IMG/VR virus record: IMGVR_UViG_3300009008_000004
Coordinates: 118,720-182,719 of that record
Source: a virus
DNA: 64,000 nt
Reading direction: 5' to 3' (one strand)
Below the pieces are notes generated by a model. That model ran no database searches and was not told the origin of the DNA. It was given only the letters and a program-made list of their open reading frames with translations. The translations under genes and the position numbers were made by a program. Positions 55,783 to 56,030 of the stretch are shown here, piece after piece. Position 1 is the first letter of the stretch. Every line of letters begins with the position of its first letter.

Positions 55783-56030
55783 GCACGGGAGGTAACGCCT
55801 CTCCCGCCGGACGACGGTAAACGTCCTAAGGTGTTAGCAGCATCGAAGCTCTTGACCAGCAGGAAAGGATAGGGGGTACACGGACAACCCCTGCAAGGCT
55901 GGCAGGTCCGAAGCTAGGATCCCTCGGGTTAGAGAGTCTGCTTTGCGGGGCCGACCGCCGCAAGGTAAATGGAACCATGAGGGGGAGCAAACAGGTGCTG
56001 GTAAAGGGGTGGGTAAAACCGCCCCTTTTT
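55783..56030 (+). ncRNA. Structured non-coding RNA of unknown family, about 250 nt
   Basis: It starts just after a GGTATAAG promoter and ends at a strong terminator, with no gene between. Visible stems: CGGGAG / CTCCCG at 55786-55806, GGACG / CGTCC at 55809-55825, AGGGG / CCCCT at 55871-55891, and CGGAC with GTCCG (55881-55885 with 55906-55910). Many loops carry the string GGTAA (GGTAACG, GGTAAACG, GGTAAATGG, GGTAAAG), as in tightly folded RNAs with tertiary contacts. It does not show the conserved parts of RNase P, 6S or tmRNA. A five-codon frame (MMHGR) begins at 55778 and may be chance. Confidence 0.55.
56003..56030 (+). terminator. Rho-independent terminator of the structured small RNA
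   Basis: GGGGTGG / CCGCCCC with a GTAAAA loop, 7 bp extended by A-T pairs, followed by TTTTT. Confidence 0.9.

Follow-up and report, generated by a model that had tools for sequence, protein, structure and literature searches.

The 64,000-nt stretch of DNA considered here (the window) corresponds to positions 118720-182719 of a 182,719-bp IMG/VR virus contig. Few of the phage proteins tested have matches in PHROGs or Pfam, which points to a divergent phage. The region 55783-56030, described preliminarily as a structured RNA with its own promoter and terminator, is preceded by a plus-strand open reading frame of 146 amino acids (55335-55775), whose TAA stop lies inside the motif GGTATAAG, and is followed by a gene on the minus strand (56049-57110). 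A permuted tRNA-like element, located with a tRNA-like finder, lies upstream at approximately 54920-55070, and a tmRNA, recognized by Rfam at 102 bits, occupies 57232-57620. The features of the unit are listed below, with its form given as a thermodynamic prediction from one sequence.

55769..55776, plus strand: GGTATAAG, promoter-like motif overlapping the stop codon of the open reading frame 55335-55775
55783..56030, plus strand: proposed noncoding RNA, with a predicted 5′ end and a 3′ end placed by the terminator
55787..55803, plus strand: 5′ hairpin 1 (GGGAGGU/GCCUCUC), mean pair probability 0.87
55805..55833, plus strand: 5′ hairpin 2 (CGCC/GGUG and GGACG/CGUCC, the inner stem uncertain), pair probabilities 0.92 and 0.44
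55838..56000, plus strand: core with closing stem CAGCAUC/GGUGCUG and a branched interior, closing-stem probability 1.00
55848-55852/55984-55988, 55856-55860/55898-55902 and 55906-55909/55917-55920, plus strand: pairings in the interior of the core
55921-55930/55973-55983 and 55939-55950/55955-55967, plus strand: further pairings in the core
56003..56030, plus strand: intrinsic terminator with a stem of 9-10 bp, a GUAAAA loop and five T at 56026-56030, -17.7 kcal/mol

Coding capacity, fold and terminator

Codon usage reveals no coding capacity in any of the six frames of 55777-56030, where the scores are lower than those of nearly all 250-nt pieces of the larger genes of the phage, in agreement with the earlier statement that the region contains no gene. 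The full unit folds with a predicted energy of -111 kcal/mol and z = -3.44 on the plus strand, a value equalled by none of 200 dinucleotide shuffles, and of about 490 segments of equal length only four have a lower z. The core taken without the terminator (55833-56005) also has z = -3.44, equalled by none of 300 shuffles, and the two 5′ hairpins alone give z = -1.5. Most stems of the core other than the closing stem have pair probabilities of 0.74-0.99, and the “at least four good stems” initially proposed are borne out by these comparisons. The minus strand, in contrast, has no excess of folding (z = -0.34 and -0.17), and of all single observations this difference between the strands argues best for an RNA of the plus strand as the selected product.

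The terminator hairpin has the sequence AAAGGGGUGG-GUAAAA-CCGCCCCUUU and is followed by five T, as first described, although its stem is longer than the 7 bp then assigned to it. The repeated GGTAA loops that had been pointed out fare less well: five copies of GGTAA are indeed present in the unit, of which only two or three are placed in loops, and since some pentamer occurs at least five times in 13% of the shuffles, the repetition does not exceed chance.

Promoter motif and predicted extent of the transcript

The window contains 11 copies of the motif GGTATAAG, where 1.4 would be expected, and in the 182.7-kb contig the motif occurs 27 times on the plus strand and twice on the minus strand. 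Most copies are followed, 15-110 nt downstream, by a Shine-Dalgarno sequence and a start codon, and a motif of this class also stands 5′ of the tmRNA, at 57183. The copies of the motif located in non-coding sequence have further positions in common, in particular an A at position -17 and a C at position -2 relative to it. The copy at 55769 is one of four that fall within coding sequence, in which copies are expected to arise by chance. By its flanks it outscores 92.5% of random positions, and it is equalled or surpassed by 20 of the 23 other copies. Because of its overlap with a coding end, this copy is probably, but not certainly, a promoter. An ORF survey detected no further plus-strand gene for about 2 kb downstream of the RNA, so a promoter at 55769 could serve only this RNA. 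The promoter that had been placed over the stop codon is thus present as a motif with the overlap described, its function as a promoter being probable only.

Some copies of GGTATAAG have an inverted repeat resembling ATCTC...GAGAT about 20-30 nt upstream (e.g., contig positions 21339, 29267, 174006 and 177590). At 58871-59075 of the window, another GGTATAAG is followed by a well-folding leader of about 200 nt and then by the next gene; the fold of the segment at 58761 has z = -4.4.

The region 55783-56030 comprises a structured, non-coding and strand-specific unit with a plausible phage promoter before it and a strong terminator at its end, and this description is well supported. The reading preferred here, which we consider somewhat probable, is that the phage carries at this place a gene for a noncoding RNA of about 245 nt. 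Transcription would start approximately 6-9 nt past GGTATAAG, near 55782, and would end at 56030, to yield a compact RNA in which two 5′ hairpins precede a multibranched core with a closing stem of 7 bp.

The main alternative is that the upstream 146-aa gene has the region as its structured 3′ UTR; its mRNA would begin at a promoter at 55287 and end at 56030, and the fold would protect or regulate this mRNA or would be excised from it to give an sRNA. No terminator is present between the 146-aa gene and the RNA, and read-through from 55287 would cover the whole region. The promoter copy at 55287 also outscores the copy at 55769 (4.5 vs. -1.8), which could itself be one of the few copies expected by chance. 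However, the flanks at 55769 are closer to those of the other promoter copies than is random sequence (they fall in the 7.5% tail), and the fold exceeds that of a plain terminator, as indicated by the core (z = -3.4). An extended mRNA of this kind is possible, if doubtful. It is unlikely that a G+C-rich gap separating convergent genes folds well here by chance, with a terminator and an equally fortuitous copy of GGTATAAG; while no homologue was found, as would suit such an origin, none of the shuffles, either of the full unit (0/200) or of the core (0/300), folds as well, and the excess is confined to one strand.

Comparison with known RNA families

At gathering thresholds, the tmRNA is the only Rfam match in the whole window. 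A permissive search of 55700-56100 (401 nt, E up to 10) gave no match to RNase P, 6S, tmRNA, group I intron or Y RNA (YrlA, RF02553), which for the first three is in line with the initial judgment by eye, and a group I intron was rejected on this result. This search returned PrrB_RsmZ at 26.1 bits (E = 3e-4), where the gathering score is 44, and sraA at 16 bits. A hit to a known family had been named beforehand as one result by which the preliminary description might be refuted, and the Rfam search produced none.

Searches of phages, E. coli genomes and plasmids with blastn recovered no relatives of the RNA, and no additional copies were seen elsewhere in the contig. Exact-pattern scans, five in viral contigs and one in bacterial genomes, likewise gave no relative, as none of the matches returned (16 viral, 10 bacterial) extends significantly over the RNA, nor did a single-sequence covariance model applied to 14 phage records carrying a DUF7873 gene, the gene that also neighbours the RNA in the window; since only close relatives are within reach of such scans and of a model built on one sequence, the absence is weak evidence. 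Rhizobium phage Y65 has a match of 17 nt, which was discarded as lying inside an annotated gene, and kinship with the permuted-tRNA region, the tmRNA or the segment 58788-59076 was rejected, the alignment scores lying within the range of shuffles. A brief look within the contig for antisense targets recovered nothing beyond the locus of the RNA itself and was uninformative.

In its general kind, the RNA resembles the trans-acting sRNAs of phages and bacteria, being short, non-coding and intergenic, with a promoter-like motif and an intrinsic terminator. It differs from them in its larger branched core, and no relative in sequence or structure was found. With YrlA, the type that the neighbouring element resembles, it has in common only its place in the same cluster of noncoding RNAs: it possesses neither a match to RF02553 nor, by eye, the tRNA-like module of T-arm and D-arm, and the permuted-tRNA finder has no match inside 55783-56030.

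A sponge for a CsrA/RsmA-type protein, which would sequester the protein through GGA motifs in its loops as RsmZ does, is suggested by the sub-threshold match to PrrB/RsmZ (RF00166), in which the terminator hairpin and one GGA hairpin of this RNA align, and by the single GGA in a hairpin loop, within GUACACGGACA. This function was rejected as improbable: the score is below gathering, the terminator hairpin makes up much of the match, GGA is not enriched (8 copies vs. 7.4 expected in shuffles), and its accessibility is not significant, being as high in 33 of 150 shuffles.

An RNase P RNA that has diverged strongly or been rearranged is very improbable. A few short motifs such as AGGUAACGCCU are common to both, AGGTAACGCCT is identical to the P8 hairpin of the E. 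coli RNA, GGTAAA and GAGCAAAC recur, and nine 8-mers are shared with the E. coli sequence against 2.8 in shuffles (4/500 having as many), but no family match appears in Rfam at E up to 10, the local alignment score with the E. coli sequence is equalled by 66 of 300 shuffles, and the catalytic-core pairing, that of CR-I with CR-V for helix P4, was not found by eye.

The noncoding RNA proposed here is thus probably an orphan phage RNA, new and with no relatives found, although ordinary in kind. The original proposal of a structured RNA with its own promoter and terminator is supported in part: it holds as to the fold, the non-coding nature, the terminator and the absence of a known family, a separate start near 55783 is a prediction, and the repeats of GGTAA do not exceed chance.

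Neighbouring, probably Y RNA-like element and possible role

Both RNA neighbours with which the unit had been said to form a cluster were recovered, the tmRNA by Rfam and the permuted tRNA-like element by the finder. In the latter element, the T-arm and acceptor half (contig position 173638, about 54919 in the window) precedes the 5′ half (contig position 173742, about 55023 in the window), and it is the sole match of this type on either strand of the whole contig. ARAGORN reported neither tRNA nor tmRNA in the whole contig, despite the Rfam score of the tmRNA. The 3′ end of the tmRNA (GAATCCCGGCACCTCCA, window ~57600-57618) is repeated about 110 nt downstream (~57711-57730), beside GGTGGAGGTGG, and the repeat is possibly a duplication or the remnant of an attachment site.

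Permuted tRNA-like modules are present in 12 of 14 loci with a DUF7873 (PF25283) gene (L003, L004, L005, L006, L036-L042 and L044, to which 53921-55260 is the counterpart in the window), and none was found in L002 or in the Lak phage locus L043. In most of these loci the modules lie no more than a few hundred bases downstream of the DUF7873 gene; in some they are 0.6-2 kb away and in one they are upstream. In the controls, the reverse strands gave one match in 142 kb and the shuffles none. The module-bearing phages are those of Rhizobium, Vibrio, Klebsiella, Pseudanabaena, Arthrobacter, Rhodococcus, Gordonia and Microcoleus. Sub-threshold Rfam scores for YrlA were obtained for the locus of Gordonia phage Phendrix (37 and 21 bits) and for two modules of Rhizobium phage RHph_Y65 (L005; 37 and 34 bits). 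In the latter phage, permuted tRNA-like modules form an array at positions 12930-14130 of the locus, with motifs that recur between them, and a gene for a TROVE (Ro60-type) protein adjoins the end of the array. A hairpin with a common CGGATATG loop is seen by eye 3′ of the permuted tRNA-like elements in L042 (~4900-5010), L039, L040 and the window (~55200-55235).

YrlA carries a tRNA-like domain (PMC7790460), and TROVE proteins are reported from jumbo phages (PMC7824862). The permuted modules near DUF7873 genes, the sub-threshold YrlA scores, the TROVE neighbour and the tRNA-like domain of YrlA together suggest that the permuted tRNA is probably a Y RNA-like element and not a tRNA gene that needs splicing. 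The element of the window has no YrlA match itself, and this contig, possibly incomplete, yielded no TROVE gene. DUF7873 is a candidate partner of the permuted tRNA-like RNAs; its structure model is of moderate quality (pLDDT 75), and comparison with the PDB gave no convincing relative.

By analogy with other short, terminator-ended RNAs of phages and bacteria, the noncoding RNA of 55783-56030 would accumulate as a stable species during infection. It may act in trans, most likely by binding an RNA-binding protein of the host or the phage, or by pairing through its loops and junctions, and so alter gene expression. Its place between the Y RNA-like element and the tmRNA may point to a role in phage translation or in the care of RNA. 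A bolder version, in which it represents a new class of structured phage RNA, an RNP scaffold or a ribozyme, that belongs with the Y RNA-like element, DUF7873 and the tmRNA to an island for RNA repair and translation rescue, is quite unlikely.

As a lone sequence with no relatives, this RNA answers no general question yet. If expressed, it would join, as an orphan, the noncoding RNAs of large phages, a poorly charted repertoire, and its clustering with a tmRNA and a Y RNA-like element would make a function in translation or RNA care directly testable. Its main value may be as a pointer to the neighbouring system of DUF7873 and Y RNA-like elements, which is judged to be the more interesting.
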